Assembly (NCBI GenBank): GCA_905235565.1
Contig: CAJOLR010000020.1
Span: 1-32,717, forward strand
Origin: an uncultured Bacteroidaceae bacterium
GTDB lineage: Bacteria; Bacteroidota; Bacteroidia; Bacteroidales; Bacteroidaceae
Direction: 5' to 3'
Length of the DNA stretch: 32,717 nt
Shown: piece by piece, positions 17,063 to 26,227 of the stretch
Layout: every line of letters starts with the position of its first letter
Numbering within the stretch: position 1 is the stretch's first letter
Translations under genes and position numbers: made by a program
Notes under the pieces: generated by a model
What the model saw: only the letters and a program-made list of their open reading frames with translations
Database searches by the model: none
What the model was told of the DNA's origin: nothing

Positions 17063-18793
17063 TTACCATCCTCCGGGTCCTCCACCTGGACCACCAGGGA
17101 ATCCACCTCCACCTGGACCACCAGGGAATCCACCTCTACCTGGATCACCAGGGAATCCTCTTCCAGCGGGTCCACCCGGTCCTCCCGGTCCGCCAGGACC
17201 ACCTCCTTTATAAGCAGACATTGTAACAGGTGTTCCGCTGCTTACAGAGCAATTTGTCCGGACTTTACCTTCAAGCAATTCTGTACCGCCTTGAATCATA
17301 ACACCGGCATTAAGGGCAGGGGAGGATTTGCCTGAAACAACAAGCGTTGAGCCGCCGTTTACCGGGGTCTTGAATGCAATACACTCCTGGCCTATTGTCA
17401 TTGAATACCAGATGTTTTTGCTCCAGACTGTAGTCTGAAAACAATCCTGAGAGAGTCTTGACCCTGACTCCAGCCCTCCTATGGCTATCAGCGTACCACC
17501 CTGTAAGTAAAGCCTGTATCCTCTTTCGGTATTGGCATCAATTGCCACCTCGGGAACTCTGCTCCCAATGGCATATACCAGACCTCCTTTGATGTAGAAG
17601 TTGCCGTTGGCATCCAGACCGTCATTGCGTGCTGAACAGCCATATACCATTCCGCCCTCAATGGTAAATGTGCCGCCGGAGTTTATTGCATCATCAGCGG
17701 CCGAATAGCTGTAAACCGAGCCTTCTTTCACAATTATGTCACTCTTGGACTCTATGCCTTCATGCGCTTCGCTGTTTACAGAGACTGTTCCGCCATGGAA
17801 CACAATGTCTCCGTCAAACTTTATGCCCTTGGCCGATGCGCTGTTTGATGTAAAGCCACGTCCTCTGCCAGTTGAACCTACGTTGGAGCCTATTGTGGTT
17901 ACGTGTACTCTGCCACCGCTGAAACAGCCTGTACCGTCACCGCTTATACCCTTGCCACCTGCCCCGAAACAGACTATGTCAAGCGTACCCGCAGTAATCT
18001 CAAACCTGCGGTCCGCCTTGATACCTGAAGTGCCTTTGTATTCTCCACTCGCTGTATCTAATGCTGCAGCTCCTGACACACTGATATTTGTATTGCCCCC
18101 GGCAATAAGCACCAGTGAGTCTGATACTATGCCTTTTTTCATGTCGGCTGATACAATGATGCCTATTGCCCCGCCTTCTATAATTACTGACTCCTTTCCG
18201 CGTATTCCGTGACCTGCTGCTGAAATAACGTTAATTACAGGTTCCCCTGTTATCCTGACATAGTCATCACTGCTGATGCCGGATTTTCCTACTGCTGTTA
18301 CGTTTAATGTTCCTTTACCGCAGATTATCAGCTCTCCCTCACTGAACAGGGCGGCTTTCTCATCCTCACTATCCGGTGTGACTGAATAAATGGCCGCATC
18401 ATTCAGGCTGTTTTTGCCGTTTATTACAAGATGGCATTTTTTCTTGCTCTGGTTGTTTATGGCAGCTCCAGTTGAGTTTGTCAGGTTAAGGTTATTCAGG
18501 ACCAAAGCCTGTTTCCTGTTGCTGTACAGTTTGACAGAACCGTCGTGTGTAGTCCCCGACAGTTCATAAGCCACCGTTTCATCAGTTGTGTTGTTTACGG
18601 TTACATGGCTGCCGTTTACGGTTACAGTATTATTGGTATCGCCCGTAACCTGAACACCACTCCCTGAAAAAACAATCCTGACGTTACGGTCATACTCATT
18701 AATGTTGAATCCTTCATTCAGATCTTGACCTGAACTATGTGTACCGCACGCAAAAAGAAACGTTGGTAAAATGAAATGATATACAGCTCTCAT
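17063..18793 (-). CDS. Cthe_2159-type carbohydrate-binding beta-helix protein with Gly/Pro tail (shorter paralogue)
   Basis: A 576-residue exported protein, probably a lipoprotein (LFACG, Cys16). Residues 33-525 match the carbohydrate-binding family PF14262 (Cthe_2159), a right-handed beta-helix that binds acidic or cellulosic glycans with calcium. Conserved pieces include TVNNTTDET, AAINNQSKKK, SEDEKAALFSEGEL, GISSDDYVR, GHGIRGK, KGIKFDGD, AHEGIESKSD, DDAINSGGTFTIEGG and NDGLDANGNFYIKGG. The last 48 residues are nearly all Gly, Pro and Phe with a few Arg, in repeats of the FPGGPGG type, and end in PGGW. It is the last gene of the minus-strand operon; its start overlaps the stop of the gene before it by 4 bases. 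It is a clear paralogue of the 804-residue protein at the head of the operon but lacks its N-terminal domains. Confidence 0.85.
   Translation of the reverse strand: MRAVYHFILPTFLFACGTHSSGQDLNEGFNINEYDRNVRIVFSGSGVQVTGDTNNTVTVNGSHVTVNNTTDETVAYELSGTTHDGSVKLYSNRKQALVLNNLNLTNSTGAAINNQSKKKCHLVINGKNSLNDAAIYSVTPDSEDEKAALFSEGELIICGKGTLNVTAVGKSGISSDDYVRITGEPVINVISAAGHGIRGKESVIIEGGAIGIIVSADMKKGIVSDSLVLIAGGNTNISVSGAAALDTASGEYKGTSGIKADRRFEITAGTLDIVCFGAGGKGISGDGTGCFSGGRVHVTTIGSNVGSTGRGRGFTSNSASAKGIKFDGDIVFHGGTVSVNSEAHEGIESKSDIIVKEGSVYSYSAADDAINSGGTFTIEGGMVYGCSARNDGLDANGNFYIKGGLVYAIGSRVPEVAIDANTERGYRLYLQGGTLIAIGGLESGSRLSQDCFQTTVWSKNIWYSMTIGQECIAFKTPVNGGSTLVVSGKSSPALNAGVMIQGGTELLEGKVRTNCSVSSGTPVTMSAYKGGGPGGPGGPGGPAGRGFPGDPGRGGFPGGPGGGGFPGGPGGGPGGW
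17083..17163 (-). repeat. 27-bp tandem repeat, three copies, in a coding tail
   Basis: Units 17083-17109 and 17110-17136 are identical (27 of 27); 17137-17163 is a diverged third copy. Each unit encodes nine residues of the FPGGPGG type near the C-terminus of the surface protein. Such repeats can gain or lose units by slippage without breaking the frame. Confidence 0.9.
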
Positions 18794-20022
18794 CGGATAT
18801 GAATTTTGAAATCCCCTTCATTTATAGTCCCGTTGTTATTGAGCCCGGTCAGATATGTGTCTGCTGTCAGGTTCCATACGGCATTCTTTTCAACCGTTAC
18901 TGTCGCTGTTTTAGCAGTGTTGCCGGTATTGGCTGCTCCGTTCCAGATTACGTTATTACCTATTGTAACGCTAACATTGTTTACATCATCAGCACATACG
19001 TCACCATTGTAAGTCCATGATTCTTTAGTGGTATTGAGCAGAAGATTACCGGTTGATCCGTTACCGCGCTTATAGTATTCTACACTCATCAGTTTTCCGC
19101 TGGCCACATTAAGGGTGACATCGGTCAGGGTAAGAGTACCCGACACATTGGTAACAAAACAGAGCGGCGCTCCAGTGCTGGTAACGCTTAACGTACTGTT
19201 GGTCACGGAGCAGACAGGATTGGAGCCATCGGCATCGCCCGATGTGGACTGGTGCAAGAGAATTCCACGTGTATCAGACCGGGATGTCATCCGGCAGTTA
19301 TTTACAGTTACCCGGTTGCTGCCCTCTATAGTGGCGATAGGACCTTTTTCTGACAATCCTGTTATGTCTGTCACGGTAATTTCGCCTGTACTGTATATTA
19401 CCGCCGATTTACTGCCCCTGGCCGTAACTGAACCACCTGTAACATTGACTGTACCTCCACCACGGTCTGTGGCAATGGCCGAACTGGTCTCACTCCGTGT
19501 GGTTATGTTTACGTTTGATGCGTTTATTATCCCGCCCCCCGTACAATGCAGTCCGCGTGACACGCTTGCAGAGTTGTCAATGGTAATTCCATTGATGTCA
19601 ATCCTGGCTCCGTTTGTGGCGAAAACAGCGTTTGAACCCTTGGAAACAGTTGTCACAATACAGTCTTTAATGTTTATGACAGACTCCTTACCCGATGCAT
19701 ATACGGCTGAGTTTGTGCCGTAAAAGCTTGTGGCATCGCCTGTATAGTTACTGCTGTAGTCTCCTTTTTTTGTGATATTACAGTCAGAAAGAGTCAGTTT
19801 GCCGTTTGTGACCTGTATTACATTGTAATCAGGAACTGTTGTGGTAAGCGCCTCATCCTTCAGTTCCTTTACGGATTCGTCAGAGATGACATATTCCGCT
19901 CCGGCAGGGGACTTAGAGCTGGGATTTCCGCGTTCACCGTTCCTGCCATGTCCTGGCTGGGCGTCAGATTCCGTACAGGCTGCAAATATCGTTATTGCAA
20001 CAAGAATGAACTTTGCATTCAT
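18790..20022 (-). CDS. beta-helix surface lipoprotein, 410 aa
   Basis: A lipoprotein (lipobox FAAC, Cys16) with a low-complexity Gly/Pro/Asn/Ser linker right after the lipidated Cys and then some 350 residues of short beta-strand repeats rich in Thr, Val, Asn and Ser, such as VINIKDC, ITIDNSAS, VNITTRSE, GGTVNVTGGSV and VTVNNCRM. This is the look of a right-handed parallel beta-helix (pectate-lyase-like or polymorphic-outer-membrane type) with about 20 residues per turn. There are no catalytic residues I can point to, so binding or structural roles are as likely as an enzyme. It lies between the shortened DUF2490 gene (12 bases) and the shorter Cthe_2159-type gene (4-base overlap), in one operon. 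It would be displayed on the outer membrane or held in the periplasm. Confidence 0.8.
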   Translation of the reverse strand: MNAKFILVAITIFAACTESDAQPGHGRNGERGNPSSKSPAGAEYVISDESVKELKDEALTTTVPDYNVIQVTNGKLTLSDCNITKKGDYSSNYTGDATSFYGTNSAVYASGKESVINIKDCIVTTVSKGSNAVFATNGARIDINGITIDNSASVSRGLHCTGGGIINASNVNITTRSETSSAIATDRGGGTVNVTGGSVTARGSKSAVIYSTGEITVTDITGLSEKGPIATIEGSNRVTVNNCRMTSRSDTRGILLHQSTSGDADGSNPVCSVTNSTLSVTSTGAPLCFVTNVSGTLTLTDVTLNVASGKLMSVEYYKRGNGSTGNLLLNTTKESWTYNGDVCADDVNNVSVTIGNNVIWNGAANTGNTAKTATVTVEKNAVWNLTADTYLTGLNNNGTINEGDFKIHIR

Positions 20023-20034
20023 AATGGTTATTTT

Positions 20035-20394
20035 TTAAAAAGAGTACTTGTATCCAATGCAGATTTGTGGCATTATAGTACGGTCATACGTCAGTGACTT
20101 CAGTCTGGTCCCGCTTCTGTGGGTTAACTGGAGTTTTTCCTTGAGCGAGAAGCGCCAGTCTCCGCTTTTAAGTGTGCCGGTAAGGTCCAGATATAGCCGG
20201 TGGCGCGGATTCCACTGGTCTGATGAGTTCTTTACGTCTATATATACATATCCAAGGCCGGCCTTAAGAAAGGAATTGATTTTATAATCTCCTCCAATTG
20301 TAGCCTGATAACGCCATATTTCGTTAAAACTGTCTTTTGTACGTAGCTCAAGGTCGGCAATCATATAGTCGCCCAGTTCCTGAATTGAAATCAT
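20035..20394 (-). CDS. shortened DUF2490-like beta-barrel protein
   Basis: A 119-residue protein with the features of DUF2490 outer-membrane proteins: DLELRTKDSFNEIWRY, GGDYKINSFLKAGLGYVYID, WNPRHRLYLDLTG, WRFSLKEKLQLTHR and a C-terminal strand ending IGYKYSF, a usual last strand for insertion by the BAM machinery. Full-length members are about 200-270 residues with a signal peptide. This one has no signal peptide and, after LTHRSG, jumps almost directly to the last strand, so most of the barrel is missing. It starts inside the stop of the small exported-protein gene (ATGA overlap). It may be a decayed gene or a reduced form. Joining it to the upstream gene by a frameshift was considered, but neither alternative frame restores recognisable DUF2490 sequence. 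Confidence 0.6.
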   Translation of the reverse strand: MISIQELGDYMIADLELRTKDSFNEIWRYQATIGGDYKINSFLKAGLGYVYIDVKNSSDQWNPRHRLYLDLTGTLKSGDWRFSLKEKLQLTHRSGTRLKSLTYDRTIMPQICIGYKYSF

Positions 20395-20696
20395 AATGCT
20401 GTAACTTTTTTGTTTATAATCTTTTCTATAATACGTACCTTTTGCTTGAACCTTCCTGGCCGTACACCCGGATCTGTCATTGTCACTGCAATGCAGTATT
20501 TGCTGACTCTCCTGGATCTGACTCTGTGGTATAGCAGGATATTTTTCATAAGACTGAAGGAACGTCCGTCCTGTTTAAGTTCTACTTTCCACTCCTTGAC
20601 TACAAGGTTCTTCTTGTTGATTTTCTGTGTCTCCTGTGCGCCTGCCGTAAACGGGATCAACAGCAGAATGCAGAGCAAATAACAGTACTTTTTCAT
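20391..20696 (-). CDS. small basic exported protein, 101 aa
   Basis: The first 20 residues are a normal signal peptide (MKKYCYLLCILLLIPFTAGA, cleavage before Gln-Glu). The mature part of about 80 residues is rich in Lys and Arg (for example HRVRSRRVSKYC and KQKVRIIEKIINKK) and unlike any family I know. The start at 20696 was taken over an upstream in-frame Met because of the signal peptide. It lies 28 bases after the 804-residue surface-protein gene and shares an ATGA overlap with the DUF2490-like gene. It could be a genuine small periplasmic factor, or the signal-peptide end of a gene whose remainder was lost; the DUF2490-like protein behind it lacks a signal peptide of its own, which makes the second reading worth testing. 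Confidence 0.55.
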   Translation of the reverse strand: MKKYCYLLCILLLIPFTAGAQETQKINKKNLVVKEWKVELKQDGRSFSLMKNILLYHRVRSRRVSKYCIAVTMTDPGVRPGRFKQKVRIIEKIINKKVTAL

Positions 20697-20724
20697 AACT
20701 CGTGCATTTTGATTGTTTATAATA

Positions 20725-23139
20725 TCACCAGCCTCCCTTTCTGCCGCCGCCACCGGGACCACCCGGATTTATGCCACCGCCGTTGCCTCCGGTATATGAA
20801 GACAGCGTTACTGATGAACCACCGCTTATGGAGCCGCCTGTAGTGACAATTCCATCAAACCAGCTTGAGCCGCCAGATACCGTGATACCGGATTTAAGGG
20901 TAGGGGTGGATGCTCCAGATACCACCAGAGGTGTTCCGCCGCTGGCTGGAGTCTTGAAAGCTATAACGTTTGAACCTACTGTGAGCGAATACCATGTGCT
21001 TCTGTTCCAGGATGATGACTGATAACAGCTCTGAGTGAGGCTTGCTCCTGACTCCAGTCCGCCGATAGCAATCAATGTGCCCCCTTGAACGTATAGTTTG
21101 TATCCTCCCTCTGTGTTTGCATCAAGTGCTACCTCGGGCGATGTGGCACCTATTGCATACACAATACCGCCTTTTATGTAGAAATTGCCGTTAGCATCCA
21201 TTCCGTCATTGCTTGTGGCATAGCCGCCAACCATTCCGCCTTCTATCGTGAATGTACTGGCTGAGTTTATAGCATCATCTGCCTGCGAGTAGCTATAGAT
21301 GACACCATCCTTGACAGTAATAGTTCCTTTGGACTCTATACCTTCATGTGCCTTGCAGCTTACTGTTACTGTCCCGCCGTTAAAGTACAGGTTCCCGTCG
21401 AACTTGATACCCTTGGCCGATACACTGTTGGATGAACTGCTGTTACGGCCTCCCTGTGATGAACCGTAGTTGGAGCCTGTTGCAGTGACATTTACAGTAC
21501 CTCCGTTGAAATAACCCGCTGCATCGCCGCTTATGCCCTTACCGCCGGTGCCGGAATTGGTAATTGTCAGTGTGCCTGCATTCATCTCAAAACGCTGGTC
21601 GGCCTTGATGCCTGCAGTGCCTGTGTATTCAGCATCATCACTGTCATACGCAGCTGATCCTGTAACCTTGATTGTGGTTGAACCACCGTCAATGCATACC
21701 AGAGAGTCTGATGTGATACCCTTCTTCATATTGGCTGACACCTCAGCATTCAACACTCCGTTTGATACTATCACCGCATCCTTGCCGCGTATGCCATGAC
21801 CGGCTGAGGAAATAACCTTTATTGTAGGAGATGACATGAAACGTACGTAGTCATCACTTGTGATACCGGCCTTTCCGGTTGCTGTAACTGTAAGCGTGCC
21901 GTCTCCGCTGAATATCAGCTGTCCCTCACTGAATATAGCGGCTTTCTCATCCTCGGATGAAGGAGTGTCTGTGTATGACGAGCCATCGGCGACAGAGTTT
22001 GTGCCTTTGACAACAACAAAACAGCGTTTCTTGCCCTGATTGTTTATGGCGGCACCGTTCCTGTTGGTCAAGCTGAGTCCATCCATTACTATTGCCTGCT
22101 TTTTGGAGCTGTAAACTTTAAAATAACCGTCACTGGCAGTTCCGGTCAGGTAGTAAATAATCTTCTCATCTGTGGTGTTGTTTACTGTGACATCATTGCC
22201 AGAAACGGTTATAATACCGTCAATATCTCCGCTCACAGTGGCTCCTGAACCGGAATATGTAACATATATGGTACGGTCAAATACGGTATTGGACACATTG
22301 TCCTCGCTCTCTTCAGTATCGTCACTCTCAATTATTCCGCCACCGGACTCTCCATCCTGGCTAACGGTCAGCTTGGCACTCACTTCACCTGATGAGAAGG
22401 TTATGCAACCGGACCGTGCTGTGTCCTCATTGGGCTGTACGGTTACAGTTATCCGGGTGCTCCCTGATGTTCCTGTTTCTGAAGACAGTTCTATCCAGGA
22501 CTCAGATATAATAGTAGTCCAGTCACTGCCCGAACTTACAGTAACCGTAAAACTGCCACCTTCTTTGGCTGCTTTAACAATAGTTTCTGACAGGGTAATG
22601 TAATCATTGCCGGAATATCTGGGGATGTTGATTCCTGTCCCGTCGGACAGAGTTATGTACACGCTGTCGGCATCATGGGTCATACTGTTGAAGACAGGAA
22701 TGCTGCGGCCTTCAAGAATTTCATATACCTTATTCCATTCGCCGCCATAATATGCATACCAGAAACCGTCGGAACCCTTTATCCTTAAAAGTTCGGATGC
22801 GAATTCAGAACTGACGGTATTCCCGTCAATCAGCCATTGTGAGGCCCCTACGCCTATTGTCGGGTTTGCGTAATTGAAACCGTAGGCGGCGCGGGCATTT
22901 ATAATCATGGTGTTGCCCGATGAAAACGTGATAGTATCTTCACTTACTGATGTGACCGTACTGCCGGCAACATACTCATTGGAAAGAGCCTGTAGAGCGG
23001 CTATGTCTGTGTTTAACTGAGAACAGTCAACAGAAACACCAGTCTTTTCCTGTACGATAACGGTAATGTCATCACCCGCACATCCGCTAAACATAAGTGG
23101 CAGAATCAAACCGATTGTTGTTATTTTTTTCATAATCAT
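20725..23139 (-). CDS. Cthe_2159-type carbohydrate-binding lipoprotein with DUF4988-like and BACON domains (longer paralogue)
   Basis: An 804-residue lipoprotein (lipobox FSGC, Cys20; Met3 at 23133 is an equally good start). Residues 36-175 resemble the DUF4988 / PL29 N-terminal domain of Bacteroidota (a short Leu-rich coiled segment LNTDIAALQAL, then VTSVSEDTITFSSG and SDGFWYAYYGGEW). Residues 180-263 are a BACON domain (ending VSAKLTVSQDG). An acidic linker follows (264-286), then a full Cthe_2159-type beta-helix (287 to about 775) with the same motifs as its shorter paralogue, including GITSDDYVR, GHGIRGKD, KGIKFDGN, AHEGIESK, DDAINS and NDGMDANGNFYIKGG. The tail is Gly-rich and ends RKGGW. 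It is the first gene of the minus-strand operon, divergent from the LytTR regulator. The role is probably glycan binding at the cell surface. Confidence 0.85.
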   Translation of the reverse strand: MIMKKITTIGLILPLMFSGCAGDDITVIVQEKTGVSVDCSQLNTDIAALQALSNEYVAGSTVTSVSEDTITFSSGNTMIINARAAYGFNYANPTIGVGASQWLIDGNTVSSEFASELLRIKGSDGFWYAYYGGEWNKVYEILEGRSIPVFNSMTHDADSVYITLSDGTGINIPRYSGNDYITLSETIVKAAKEGGSFTVTVSSGSDWTTIISESWIELSSETGTSGSTRITVTVQPNEDTARSGCITFSSGEVSAKLTVSQDGESGGGIIESDDTEESEDNVSNTVFDRTIYVTYSGSGATVSGDIDGIITVSGNDVTVNNTTDEKIIYYLTGTASDGYFKVYSSKKQAIVMDGLSLTNRNGAAINNQGKKRCFVVVKGTNSVADGSSYTDTPSSEDEKAAIFSEGQLIFSGDGTLTVTATGKAGITSDDYVRFMSSPTIKVISSAGHGIRGKDAVIVSNGVLNAEVSANMKKGITSDSLVCIDGGSTTIKVTGSAAYDSDDAEYTGTAGIKADQRFEMNAGTLTITNSGTGGKGISGDAAGYFNGGTVNVTATGSNYGSSQGGRNSSSSNSVSAKGIKFDGNLYFNGGTVTVSCKAHEGIESKGTITVKDGVIYSYSQADDAINSASTFTIEGGMVGGYATSNDGMDANGNFYIKGGIVYAIGATSPEVALDANTEGGYKLYVQGGTLIAIGGLESGASLTQSCYQSSSWNRSTWYSLTVGSNVIAFKTPASGGTPLVVSGASTPTLKSGITVSGGSSWFDGIVTTGGSISGGSSVTLSSYTGGNGGGINPGGPGGGGRKGGW

Positions 23140-23228
23140 TTTTTTTGTTTTCTGTTTCTAAAGTATGTCAGAAAGGCTTTACTGAAAAAAATATTCAACA
23201 AACGCCATATTTTTCTCAACAAAACGGG

Positions 23229-23257
23229 TTGACAGAACAACAAAAAAACTACTTTTG
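23229..23257 (+). promoter_or_regulatory. promoter of the LytTR regulator gene
   Basis: TTGACA at 23229-23234 and the -7 element TACTTTTG at 23250-23257, with 18 bases between the TTG and the -7 element, fit the Bacteroidota consensus well. Transcription would begin at about 23262-23264, which is at the ATG (23264) itself, so the message may be leaderless unless the ATG at 23300 is used. For the divergent operon only a weak element was found (TACTTTAG on the minus strand, 23158-23165). Confidence 0.65.
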
Positions 23258-23263
23258 CGCGTT

Positions 23264-24181
23264 ATGCAGAATGCCGGACAGGGAGTGGATAATCTAATTA
23301 TGGGGATAGTGATACAGATACTGCCATATCTGTTACTGCTCTTGTTGCACCATTTTGTGCTGGCTCCGCTGTTCTTCAAAAAGAAACTGCTTGTTTATTT
23401 GCTGGTTACTTTGTCTCTGCTTACGGCTTTCGGCTTTTACTGCTTCAAGGTTGGCAATCCGCAGGATTTTGGTCCGGGTGGTCCGGGACAGTTCCAGGGG
23501 CCGCCACCCATGATGCAGCGGGGGCCAATGCCTCCTCCGCGGCCTATTGATGATATGCGTCCTCCAATGGACAGCATGATGCCTCCTCCTGATGAATTGC
23601 GGCCTCCTATGGATGAATTGCGGCCTCCTATGGATGATGTGCGGCAGCCAATGATGTCCCCTGGTAATCACAGGCCCATGCGCCCCGAGGTTATGAAGCT
23701 GCTTATCGGCCTGCTGCTGGTATTGGTGGACCTTGGAGTGATGGTGTATCTGCGCAATCTGCGCACCGAAAAACAGGTTGATGACTTAATGGCCGAGAAC
23801 CAAAGACATCAGGAAAAGCTGGATGAGATGAGCCGCAACGCGGTCAATATGCAGAAAGCCGATACAGAACTTACATTCAAGACCGATTATAAGCAGGTGC
23901 ACGTCAAGCCATGCAACATACTATATGTCGAAGGGATGGGAGAGTACCTTAAGATATACCATAAGGATTCTGCTACGCCGCTTGTGGTGCTCATGAGCAT
24001 GAAACGTATCCTGGAGCAGTTGCCCGATGACCGTTTTGCGCGTGTCCACAAGTCATACATCGTGAACATTAATCATATAGCAAGCAACAGCCGTACCCAG
24101 ATCACTGTAGATAACGGTAGCGTCATACCCATAGGTGAATCCTACCGCGTTTCGGTCTTGGAGCGTCTTAATGCAAAGTAA
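23264..24181 (+). CDS. membrane-bound LytTR-family transcriptional regulator with Pro-rich exposed loop
   Basis: A 305-residue protein. Two membrane helices (about 11-38 and 42-61) separated by KKK are followed by an 80-residue Pro/Met/Gly/Asp-rich loop (63-143) with GPGGPGQ and a repeated RPPMDEL motif. A third helix (145-163) leads into a charged coiled-coil segment (166-200) and a LytTR DNA-binding domain (about 203-304: TDYKQVHVKPCNILYVEGMG, RVHKSYIVNINHI, IPIGESYR). With the DNA-binding domain in the cytoplasm the loop faces the periplasm. There is no histidine kinase or receiver domain, so it works as a one-component membrane sensor. It is divergent from the operon it presumably controls. 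Starts at 23264 (on the promoter edge) and 23300 (MGIVIQILPY) are both possible. It converges with the phosphate-transporter fusion gene 52 bases downstream. Confidence 0.85.
   Translation: MQNAGQGVDNLIMGIVIQILPYLLLLLLHHFVLAPLFFKKKLLVYLLVTLSLLTAFGFYCFKVGNPQDFGPGGPGQFQGPPPMMQRGPMPPPRPIDDMRPPMDSMMPPPDELRPPMDELRPPMDDVRQPMMSPGNHRPMRPEVMKLLIGLLLVLVDLGVMVYLRNLRTEKQVDDLMAENQRHQEKLDEMSRNAVNMQKADTELTFKTDYKQVHVKPCNILYVEGMGEYLKIYHKDSATPLVVLMSMKRILEQLPDDRFARVHKSYIVNINHIASNSRTQITVDNGSVIPIGESYRVSVLERLNAK
23591..23653 (+). repeat. 21-bp tandem repeat, three copies, in the sensor loop
   Basis: Units 23591-23611 and 23612-23632 are identical; 23633-23653 is diverged. Each encodes seven residues of the DELRPPM type in the periplasmic loop of the LytTR regulator. 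Confidence 0.9.
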
Positions 24182-24233: not shown

Positions 24234-26198
24234 TTATTCCTGGAAGCAGTAACCGAAACCGGCGCGGGTAGCCAGGCAGTCAGCGTACGGCTCAATCTTC
24301 TTGCGGATGCGGGTGATGTTTACATCTACAGTACGGGTATTCACCACAACGTCATCGGGCCAGATGGCCTGCAGCAGCTGCTCGCGTGAATAGACCACGC
24401 CGCGGTTCATCATGAACAGTTTGAGGAGTTCATATTCAGTCTTGGTGAAAGAGACCGCATTGCCGTCAACTGTAACCTCCTTGCTGTCTGTGTCTATCTG
24501 GATGCCTCTGTAGCGGATTCCGTTGCGTGCGGCACCCAGGCGGGATTCAACTACGTTTATGATGTAGTCGCCGGTCTTCTCGCATTCAATTATCAGGTCT
24601 ATGAATACCGTTCCGCTGCCATAACCGTATGTATGCTGGTCCAGATTGTTGATATTCTCCTGCTTAAGGCGGTTGCGGCAGGCGTTTATGCTGTTCTCAA
24701 TCTCCTCCGACAGGGTTATGTCATACTCCTCCCTGCGGCCGGCCAGAAGCTCGTTCATACGGGTAAGCGCCTGGTCCAGGAGTCCGAACATCTGATTGAC
24801 TCCGTCCTCCTGTGTCTGGTTGAACTCAATCTTGTTCTCCTGCTTGCGGCGCATGATGCGTGCCAGTCCGAAACAGCTGTCACCGATTGACTCCAGCTCG
24901 CCAATCTGGCGGAGCATGGCGCGGATCTTATCCTTGGTGTCATCCGACAGATGAGCATCGGCTACGTCACCCAGATACTTTCCTATCTCCTGCTCCATGC
25001 GGTCGCTGCCGTCCTCGGTCTTCTCAATGCGCTCAAACAGTTTCTTGAACGCCTGCTCATCGGTAGTATTGTATAGCTCCTTGACCAGACCGAACATGTG
25101 CTGCATCTTCTCGCCGAATATTACAATCTCCTTCTGAGCCTGAAGCACAGATATCTCAGGGGTCTTCATGATACCGCCGCGTATGAACTGCAGGCGGAAC
25201 TCGTCCTCATCGTCGGTCTTGCCGGTTTTGATTATATAGCACACCAGTTTCTCCAGCTGAGGGATGAAACCTATCAGCAATGAGGTGTTGATTACATTGA
25301 ATGCAGAGTGGAACGTGGCGAGCGCGAATGTGAGTCTGGCGGGGTCAACGGTATCGGCCGTAACGTCAATGCCTACAACACGACATACGGTGCGTACAAA
25401 GGGGTAGAAAATTATAAGCACCCAAATCACACCGAACACATTGAACAGCAGGTGAGCCATAGCTGCCCGTCGGGCTTGCGTATTGGCTGACATTGCCGCC
25501 AGGTTGGCCGTGAGGGTGGTACCTATGTTCTCACCCATAACAAGCGCGATACCCTGGAATATCGATATCGCTCCGGTTGAGCAGAGCACCATGGTGATGG
25601 CCATAAGTGCAGCCGATGACTGAGCTATGCAGGTTAGTATGGCACCTATCAGAAGAAACAGCAGGATCGTGGTGTAACGTCCCGAGTCAAATGAGGCAAA
25701 AAAGTTTACAACGGCAGGGTTGCTGGCCAGATCCATCTCACGGCCGGTCTGGTTGAGCATACCTAAAGCAAACAGCAGGAAACTGATACCGAAAAGGAAA
25801 TCGCCGATGTAACGGTGCTTACCTATTTGTATTAATATGATTCCTATAAGGAATGCCGGCCATACCAGGTTTGCTATATTGAATGAGAATCCGGCCGACA
25901 TGATCCAGGCGCTCAGAGTGGTACCTATGTTGGCACCCATAATTACCGATATGGCCTGGCTTAATGTGAGCAGTGCGGCGTTTACGAACGATACTGTCAT
26001 TACCGTTGTTGCTGCCGAGGACTGGACTGCTACTGTTACAAGTGCTCCTGTTGCTACTCCTGAGAACCGGTTTGTGGTCATTGCGCCCAACAGGTGACGC
26101 AGTTGCGGGCCTGCCATCTTCTGCAACGCCTCGCTCATGACCTTCATACCGTAAATGAGCAGGGCGATGGACCCTAAAAGCTTCAATACAATTAGCAT
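24234..26198 (-). CDS. Na/phosphate cotransporter - PhoU - OmpR-type winged-helix fusion protein
   Basis: A 654-residue chain with three parts. Residues 1 to about 315 are an NptA/PNaS-type Na+/Pi cotransporter with its two repeats marked by AVQSSAATTV plus GANIGTTLSA and AQSSAALMAI plus GENIGTTLTA. Residues about 330-555 are a helical PhoU-like domain (QLRFIRGG, LGDVADAHLSDDTKDKIR, GELESIGDSCFGLARIM, IIECEKTGDYIINVVESRL). Residues 562-654 are a complete OmpR/PhoB winged helix (SFTKTEYELLKLFMMNRGVV, YSREQLLQAIWPDD, RTVDVNITRIRKKI, ending RAGFGYCF). The receiver domain that normally precedes such a winged helix is absent. The ATG at 26198 was chosen by its -7 element at 26220-26227. The fusion implies that a membrane carrier can bind DNA, as CadC or ToxR do. 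Confidence 0.88.
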   Translation of the reverse strand: MLIVLKLLGSIALLIYGMKVMSEALQKMAGPQLRHLLGAMTTNRFSGVATGALVTVAVQSSAATTVMTVSFVNAALLTLSQAISVIMGANIGTTLSAWIMSAGFSFNIANLVWPAFLIGIILIQIGKHRYIGDFLFGISFLLFALGMLNQTGREMDLASNPAVVNFFASFDSGRYTTILLFLLIGAILTCIAQSSAALMAITMVLCSTGAISIFQGIALVMGENIGTTLTANLAAMSANTQARRAAMAHLLFNVFGVIWVLIIFYPFVRTVCRVVGIDVTADTVDPARLTFALATFHSAFNVINTSLLIGFIPQLEKLVCYIIKTGKTDDEDEFRLQFIRGGIMKTPEISVLQAQKEIVIFGEKMQHMFGLVKELYNTTDEQAFKKLFERIEKTEDGSDRMEQEIGKYLGDVADAHLSDDTKDKIRAMLRQIGELESIGDSCFGLARIMRRKQENKIEFNQTQEDGVNQMFGLLDQALTRMNELLAGRREEYDITLSEEIENSINACRNRLKQENINNLDQHTYGYGSGTVFIDLIIECEKTGDYIINVVESRLGAARNGIRYRGIQIDTDSKEVTVDGNAVSFTKTEYELLKLFMMNRGVVYSREQLLQAIWPDDVVVNTRTVDVNITRIRKKIEPYADCLATRAGFGYCFQE

Positions 26199-26219
26199 CT
26201 TTACCTTTTGAATACAGCA

Positions 26220-26227
26220 CAAAAATA
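26220..26227 (-). promoter_or_regulatory. Bacteroidota -7 element (TATTTTTG) of the phosphate-transporter fusion gene
   Basis: Minus-strand TATTTTTG matches TAnnTTTG. Transcription would begin near 26215, about 17 nt before the ATG at 26198. An AAAGGT lies just before the start. Confidence 0.65.

Follow-up and report, generated by a model that had tools for sequence, protein, structure and literature searches.

Positions 17063-24181 of the window (the whole stretch of 32,717 nucleotides analysed here, from an uncultured Bacteroidaceae bacterium) encode on the + strand a LytTR protein that lies opposite five open reading frames (ORFs) of the - strand. This protein is likely to be the product of a two-component system that collapsed into one polypeptide, a transcription factor anchored in the membrane that acts on an old neighbour gene, which encodes an exported protein of the family PF14262, here named CtheA. 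This reading draws, at the sequence level, on the domain content of the protein, the homology of both of its halves, the conserved divergent pair and a conserved repeat seen nowhere else. The conserved unit consists of two genes, the regulator and its PF14262 partner, and the regulator probably controls the adjoining PF14262 gene. The features of this unit are the following:

23264..24181 (+): membrane LytTR regulator, 305 aa, with PF04397; orthologues in nine other genomes of the same genus, one of them a fragment
23273..23452 (+): transmembrane (TM) helices TM1 and TM2 with LFFKKKLL between them; AlphaFold2 (AF2) helices at residues 4-37 and 42-63 (low confidence), kinase alignment and trees
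23447..23680 (+): Pro/Met-rich loop, predicted to be disordered; AF2 predicted local distance difference test score (pLDDT) <50 for residues 62-139, and composition
23684..23863 (+): TM3 continuing as a coiled coil, proposed to be the signalling helix; single predicted helix 141-200, aligned to the kinase linker preceding the H-box
23894..24169 (+): LytTR DNA-binding domain; PF04397, solved relative 3d6w (E 3.4e-7)
23195..23227 (no strand): proposed operator, direct repeat TCAACAAACG (23195) / TCAACAAAACGG (23216) with a 21-bp period; conservation in nine genomes
23250..23257 (+): -7 box of the regulator, TACTTTTG, with TTG at 23229 as a possible -33; sequence, aligned in nine genomes
23158..23165 (-): probable -7 box of the PF14262 gene, TACTTTAG; conserved CTAAAGTA block
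20725..23139 (-): CtheA, exported BACON + PF14262 protein with a Gly/Pro tail and a C-terminal Trp, the conserved partner; Pfam

A membrane LytTR regulator with a conserved divergent partner

PF04397 was the sole Pfam match over the cut-off in the window regulator (60.8 bits versus 22.6, E 1.6e-16), and neither a kinase nor a receiver domain was found in any of the four regulators scanned by Pfam (that of the window and three orthologues, all with PF04397 alone). NCBIfam gave no match for six window proteins. The AF2 model, which was built from five sequences and is of low confidence (mean pLDDT 58.4), consists of two helices, a disordered loop at residues 62-139, a helix at 141-200 and a beta-rich LytTR domain. 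As in one-component transmembrane regulators, a DNA-binding domain and three predicted membrane helices are combined in one protein without phosphorelay domains, and the LytTR protein is predicted to regulate transcription from the membrane. It does not belong to the two-component systems, since the PF06580 kinase domain and the PF00072 receiver ahead of LytTR are both absent. The original prediction had described a three-helix membrane LytTR protein lacking kinase and receiver, which agrees with Pfam and with the AF2 helices; its account of the domain content holds, and what it missed is the kinase-like origin of the sensor. Regarding the start of the regulator, a near-leaderless ATG at 23264 is likely to be used and not the TTG at 23255, because the TACTTTTG box ends 6 bases upstream of this ATG, which is also aligned in eight relatives.

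The LytTR domain of the window is 38-46% identical to 27 matches of other genera with listed loci, and one search mostly retrieved ordinary LytTR genes. Other LytTR matches in the 37 genomes of the genus were no better than E 1.1e-9, and the best response regulators of the family reached about 1e-18 to 1e-24. Outside the genus, no match spanning both halves of the regulator was seen at E 1e-18 in 399 family genomes, with at most five candidates scored per genome.

Among 60 relatives searched with the regulator, orthologues appeared in nine other genomes of the same genus, one of them (G022) with a fragment. The regulator lies head to head with a PF14262 gene in all nine of these carriers, G022 having fragments only, so that the LytTR/PF14262 pairing whose count across genomes had been proposed as a check is conserved within the genus. 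In three of the nine, G009, G008 and G022, the PF14262 partner is incomplete or interrupted, and the outer neighbours of the divergent pair vary among genomes, including the gene after the regulator. The self-contained surface module that had been suggested is therefore retained as a two-gene unit of regulator and surface protein with a candidate operator, and not as a conserved module of five genes.

In G022 (locus L083) both genes are fragmentary and the repeat motif described below is gone, so the pair seems to decay together. In G008 (L082) the regulator lacks TM1, the partner has an internal stop and the motif is retained.

Kinase relatives and their linkage to PF14262

A comparison of the sensor half with ORFs from 54 LytTR loci gave two weak matches (E 4e-5 and 1e-4), both to histidine kinases of other Bacteroidales families that adjoin LytTR response regulators. 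By BLASTP, residues 20-95 of the regulator are 37% identical to the G038 kinase (E 1e-4), and in the genome of one of the two matches, G046, the kinase-regulator pair adjoins a PF14262 gene. The three homologous pairs scanned by Pfam consist of a PF06580 kinase and a PF00072-PF04397 regulator. The layout shared with these kinases starts from a helix whose end reads HNFLLAP in the kinases and HHFVLAP in the window. A basic turn, another helix, an often Pro-rich loop, a further helix and a coiled coil follow, the last of which directly precedes the H-box in the kinases. TM1 and TM2 of the regulator are homologous to the second and third kinase helices, and the first helix of the kinases is missing from it.

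The linkage was surveyed in 61 PF14262 loci (that of G046, plus 32 outside the family but within the order and 28 within the family itself) scanned with profiles built here. A LytS-type kinase lies in the stretch in 11 of the 61, a figure that does not come from a random sample, because the 28 family loci were hand-picked from the best listed matches to spread genera (G091 coming from a separate search) and three weak PF14262 matches (G317, G412 and G251) were excluded from the survey of the order. Ten of the 11 also hold a LytTR gene, L187 being cut by the contig end. Chance would give roughly one in 61, if a 3.5-Mb genome is taken to hold about three such pairs; since many of the 61 loci are related, 11/61 is not to be read as a probability. 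L141, whose sensor is a very long branch, was counted as linked, and so was L169, because a separate search found its PF14262 gene, which the profile built here had missed; L138, with a LytTR fragment and no kinase, was counted as unlinked. Wherever PF14262, kinase and LytTR were all seen, the kinase stands behind PF14262 on the same strand. Moreover, among the 108 genomes of other genera with a LytTR match, this match lies 2.2-2.9 kb downstream of a listed PF14262 match on the same strand in at least 12, according to lists compared by hand. In the reverse check, 20 loci surrounding the closest LytTR genes from outside the family yielded one PF14262 gene, and 20 surrounding top family matches not already known to be linked also yielded one, about 6 kb from the kinase. 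The kinase-regulator pairs thus form a broad family, and only some of them stand beside PF14262.

In the sensor tree, the nine regulators group with eight kinases, five of them linked to PF14262 and three unlinked (G182, G202 and G093), with a bootstrap/Shimodaira-Hasegawa-like approximate likelihood ratio test (SH-aLRT) support of 99/92. A quick tree gave the same grouping at 94; L141, a very long branch in it, was left out of the careful one. In the LytTR trees the regulators fall inside a 25-row group with seven linked and eight other domains, including those of G202, G182 and G093 (90, and 90/89 in the tree that left out two long rows).

The candidate operator and the probable divergent promoters

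The divergent intergenic region, aligned in nine genomes, presents two outward promoter-like boxes with the direct repeat 23195/23216 between them. In the columns 23194-23230, 24 of 37 are invariant in the nine genomes, compared with 22 of 87 in the remainder of the intergenic region. The boxes at both divergent promoters were assigned with the -7/-33 promoter consensus; for Bacteroides promoters, the available text of PMC6193735 gives TATCTTTG. In the LytTR Regulatory System (LRS), repeats about 12 bp apart lie upstream of the promoter, and the repeat found here, with its 21-bp period, is placed just ahead of the possible -33. The LytTR repeats of S. mutans, as presented in the same available text (PMC6193735), add 9 bp and 12 bp to the same 21-bp period. 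The repeat could be bound by LytTR domains. This candidate LytTR-type operator falls within 23140-23260, the stretch named in the original prediction for binding by the LytTR domain.

The 37 genomes of the genus were scanned with the repeat motif, allowing up to two mismatches. Each of the nine genomes whose regulator is nearly complete has it once, in this intergenic region, and the 28 others, G022 included, lack it; a reversed control pattern matched once (G015).

The Pro-rich loop and the Gly/Pro tails

The loop of the window regulator, bounded by a hydropathy cut, is 31% Pro and 15% Met, and it is presumably placed outside the membrane. It contains GPGGPGQ and, twice, RPPMDEL, and both PF14262 proteins of the window end in Gly/Pro tails, all of which had been read correctly from the sequence before. 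The loop core PGQFQGPPPMMQ is kept in the five aligned sequences and in eight of the nine regulators that have a loop, G008 showing M for Q; this conservation argues that the Pro-rich core is not due to chance. The median Pro content is 31% in the regulators, 19% in the loops of linked kinases and 15% in those of other kinases (the difference between linked and unlinked kinases, p 0.07, was not used as evidence). Regulator loops carry about 15-16% Met and are nearly free of Lys, versus 3.5-5.3% Met in kinase loops. Since Pro-rich loops occur at the same place in homologous kinases both with and without a nearby PF14262, the Pro-richness was probably inherited from the kinase. Apart from this, the kinase loops of L126, L170, L171, L189 and others are 6-8% His as well as Pro-rich, which would fit metal binding.

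A tail is present in all eight other genomes where the C-terminus of the partner lies inside the contig. Among the surveyed loci, with L169 left out of the tail count because the profile had no hit there, tails, defined as at least 40% Gly plus Pro in the last 25 residues, occur in two of the 10 kinase-linked and four of the 50 unlinked ones (Fisher p 0.26). It had been suggested that the regulator may sense the state of the exported proteins or their glycan by its Pro-rich loop. A special pairing of loop and tail lacks support, because kinases have Pro-rich loops regardless of PF14262 and the tails do not track kinase linkage, and tailed PF14262 proteins also exist without a regulator in G011 and G013.

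Proposed mechanism and alternative explanations

If the regulator is a collapsed two-component system, the TM and Pro-rich-loop sensor of a LytS-type (PF06580) kinase would have been fused, by way of its coiled-coil linker, with the LytTR domain that belonged to the partner response regulator, both halves descending from one shared ancestor pair. The kinase and receiver domains would have been lost, and signalling would therefore no longer be phosphate-based. A stimulus received by the TM bundle and the loop would alter the helix that spans TM3 and the coiled coil, and this change could determine how two LytTR domains pair or are spaced on the repeat 23195-23227. The bound pair would control both divergent promoters, that of the regulator gene and that of the PF14262 gene. 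Regarding the sign, activation with positive feedback seems the likeliest, because the repeat adjoins the possible -33 of the regulator, by analogy with LRS. The damage to both genes in G022 and in G008 was counted in favour of the collapse.

Several observations weigh against this explanation. The regulator is present in only 10 of the 37 genomes of the genus, many of which are incomplete assemblies, and within the genus no two-component locus linked to PF14262 came to light that would represent an intermediate. In G011 (L097) and G013 (L098), PF14262 proteins with a tail and 68-70% identity to CtheA stand without an adjoining regulator or the motif. The motif pattern was derived from the very sites that it then found, so that finding them proves nothing, and what counts is its absence elsewhere and where the gene is missing. 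Besides, in nine two-component loci the 300 bases ahead of PF14262 held no repeat similar to the genus motif or with its 21-bp period, apart from a single short ACAAACG (L187) and weak repeats in two loci, L126 and L187; the true promoter of these loci may lie further up, because the 300 bases scanned are often another gene of the run. Finally, in the LytTR trees that include them, the unlinked response regulators of G100, G180, G149 and G150 make up, together with the regulators, the best-supported set holding the latter (95, and 98/93 with two long rows left out), and the kinases of these four occupy a distant part of the sensor tree; the LytTR alignment has only about 110 columns. At face value, this set would mean that the two halves come from separate sources.

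Such a chimera, in which a kinase sensor was combined with the LytTR domain of another regulator and not with that of its own system, is considered rather unlikely. It would account for the pairing of the regulators with four response regulators whose kinases carry a different sensor, but these four lie on a branch of length 1.4-1.6 and long-branch attraction is therefore possible. When their rows were removed too, the regulators grouped at 96/90 with the seven linked domains and with four others (G202, G182, G093 and G165); linked genomes and the first three of these four are also their companions in the sensor tree (99/92), and the chimera would leave aside the shared target family PF14262. 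By contrast, the explanation that the protein is an ordinary membrane LytTR regulator like those of Bacteroides or Caulobacter, its likeness to a kinase sensor being chance hydrophobicity, is very improbable. The BLASTP matches to the kinases are indeed short and weak, and Bacteroidota LytTR proteins with other TM domains exist, also according to the available part of PMC6193735; nevertheless, the shared motif (HHFVLAP versus HNFLLAP), the basic turn, the place of the loop, the linker and the well-supported grouping with one kinase set all speak for homology.

The remaining alternatives concern the signal. A regulator that senses its own partner, with the Pro/Met-rich loop contacting the Gly/Pro tail or the glycan-bound protein, would be in line with the divergent pairing in the nine other genomes, the conserved core of loops that are richer in Pro and Met than those of the kinases and nearly Lys-free, and the tail on every visible partner C-terminus. 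It is nonetheless doubtful to a marked degree, as Pro-rich kinase loops stand beside tailless PF14262 proteins (e.g. L126, L170 and L171), tails occur without regulators, and a surface lipoprotein would be remote from a loop at the inner membrane. Slightly less probable again is that the loop senses a metal or an oxidant, by binding soft metals or by Met oxidation. The high Met of the regulator loops and the His of the kinase loops could point to it, but no metal-handling gene was noticed in the pair, and Met may just accompany the growth of PPM repeats, no fixed Met spacing being seen beyond the MM of the core. The collapse of a phosphorelay can also be combined with these signals in a closed two-gene sensing loop, where the remodelled Pro/Met-rich loop would read the exported partner, or a soft metal or oxidant; this combination is unlikely, if a little less so than either signal taken by itself.

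Surface-protein genes at the locus

The remaining four - strand ORFs of the region are the following:

20391..20696 (-): small exported basic ORF of about 101 aa, probably a piece of a gene remnant; family search, spacing in G033
20035..20394 (-): partial DUF2490, 119 aa, probable remnant; profile positions 20-107 of 186
18790..20022 (-): exported 410-aa protein, fold unproven, a local addition; close orthologue in G033 alone
17063..18793 (-): CtheB, second PF14262 protein with a Gly/Pro tail, a local duplicate; Pfam, 60% identity to CtheA

The original prediction had seen here a five-gene operon with two glycan-binding lipoproteins of the Cthe_2159 type, a beta-helix lipoprotein, a reduced DUF2490 barrel and a small basic protein. 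The two PF14262 proteins were recovered, with BACON and PF14262 in CtheA and PF14262 in CtheB; their matches (146.5 and 140.4 bits) are well over the cut-off of 25.8. Glycan binding by CtheA and CtheB is suggested by the family name, and the lipoprotein status of the window proteins is a judgement by eye. The five ORFs are present on the - strand, but only the PF14262 partner is conserved. The tandem copy CtheB, 60% identical to CtheA, occurs elsewhere only in G033, which also has the orthologue of the 410-aa protein (92% identity, the next best protein reaching 28%). The five-gene arrangement is thus local, because the 410-aa gene and the tandem CtheB are found at this locus in two genomes alone, G000 (that of the window) and G033. 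A beta-helix in the 410-aa protein is unproven, since it had no significant Pfam or NCBIfam match.

As for the DUF2490 ORF and its neighbour, both reading frames and a partial DUF2490 exist, but they look like a remnant and not like a working barrel. The window DUF2490 covers positions 20-107 of the 186 of the profile, versus 2-181 and 2-179 in two complete copies from the genus, which have 285 and 297 aa, its matches in three other genus genomes are all weak, and the small exported ORF had no Pfam or NCBIfam family over the cut-off. Both are missing in the nearest relative G033, where CtheA and the next gene are 65 bp apart. The pair is probably a gene remnant.

Of 20 other stretches examined around PF14262 genes of the genus, many are runs of VTC, DUF4956, DUF2490 and PF14262 with a small secretion-tail protein, and the PF14262 proteins of these runs lack a Gly/Pro tail. 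The order VTC - DUF4956 - DUF2490 - PF14262 with a small Por secretion-tail protein was observed in L109 and L116 by Pfam and in L107, L108, L110, L112 and L114 by profile. A Trp is the last residue of both PF14262 proteins of the window and of every PF14262 protein paired with a regulator whose C-terminus lies in the contig. The same C-terminal Trp was seen in 14 of 60 surveyed PF14262 loci, often behind a Gly/Pro/Arg tail (e.g. L144, L164, L172, L186 and L189), and it looks like some C-terminal signal.

Comparison with known systems

One comparison is with the LytS-LytTR pairs beside PF14262 (L126, L144, L163, L170, L171, L189 and L191), which share the sensor layout, the DNA-binding family and the neighbour family. 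In contrast to the regulator, they are two proteins with kinase and receiver, have one extra TM helix and stand in same-strand order with PF14262. The hybrid two-component systems of Bacteroides also combine a sensor and a DNA-binding domain in one membrane protein, but they retain the kinase and receiver domains, which are both gone here.

Membrane regulators of proposed two-component descent and LytTR proteins with several TM helices are kinds already known. According to the available part of PMC10269533, transmembrane transcription regulators may derive from two-component systems, with Rsp of Neisseria gonorrhoeae, a PilS-PilR chimera, as an example in which the membrane receptor of a kinase has likewise been fused with the part of the partner regulator that binds DNA. 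The present case differs from Rsp, as it is presented there, in its LytTR domain, in belonging to Bacteroidota, in having intact two-component relatives beside the same target family and in its occurrence in ten genomes of one genus. ToxR-type regulators, in the same available part (PMC10269533), also unite a TM part and a cytoplasmic DNA-binding domain in a single protein, whereas the LytTR domain, the three TM helices with a Pro/Met loop and the kinase ancestry are particular to the regulator studied here.

Several TM helices ahead of LytTR are described for proteins of the Bacteroides 'LRS-like' operons and for HigX of Caulobacter in the available parts of PMC6193735 and PMC13384398, and the upstream direct repeats of the 'LRS-like' promoters, with a 22-bp period, resemble the 21-bp repeat found here (PMC6193735). 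As far as these texts go, the differences are that the window regulator has no NfeD/DUF2154 partner or toxin-antitoxin genes, and that it has a kinase-like sensor and a divergent surface-protein target. The N-terminal part of HigX is needed for promoter control in Caulobacter, and HigX is said in the available part of that text to lack a periplasmic domain (PMC13384398), whereas the regulator here has a long loop. It is not an LRS proper, where a soluble regulator and a separate membrane inhibitor gene share an operon, because it is membrane-bound and the gene that follows it varies.

In the literature searched, with most subscription journals outside the search, no case was found of a LytTR-type regulator of this kind whose two-component relatives adjoin the same target family, and no description of the control of PF14262 surface proteins. 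The collapsed form, the related intact kinase/regulator pairs, the shared neighbour family and the predicted operator can all be compared, and it is therefore testable what a kinase sensor can do without its kinase. Furthermore, the surface proteins of PF14262, a common kind in the family (genes in 127 of 201 sampled genomes), gain a candidate regulator and operator.

The genome and the neighbouring sequence

The genome of the window has about 2.2 Mb in 91 contigs, and its four close named relatives are metagenome assemblies that carry the labels Bacteroidaceae or Bacteroidales; their sources include yak omasum, yak reticulum and red deer. Scanning the window for Rfam families and for tRNAs gave no match. 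At 24234-26222 on the - strand, a 662-aa frame combines a Na/Pi cotransporter (PF02690), PhoU and a C-terminal winged helix (PF00486), that is, a transporter with its own DNA-binding domain. Copies of this PF02690-PhoU-PF00486 gene, 87-96% identical, are present in L075, L077 and L079, and a partial one in L083.

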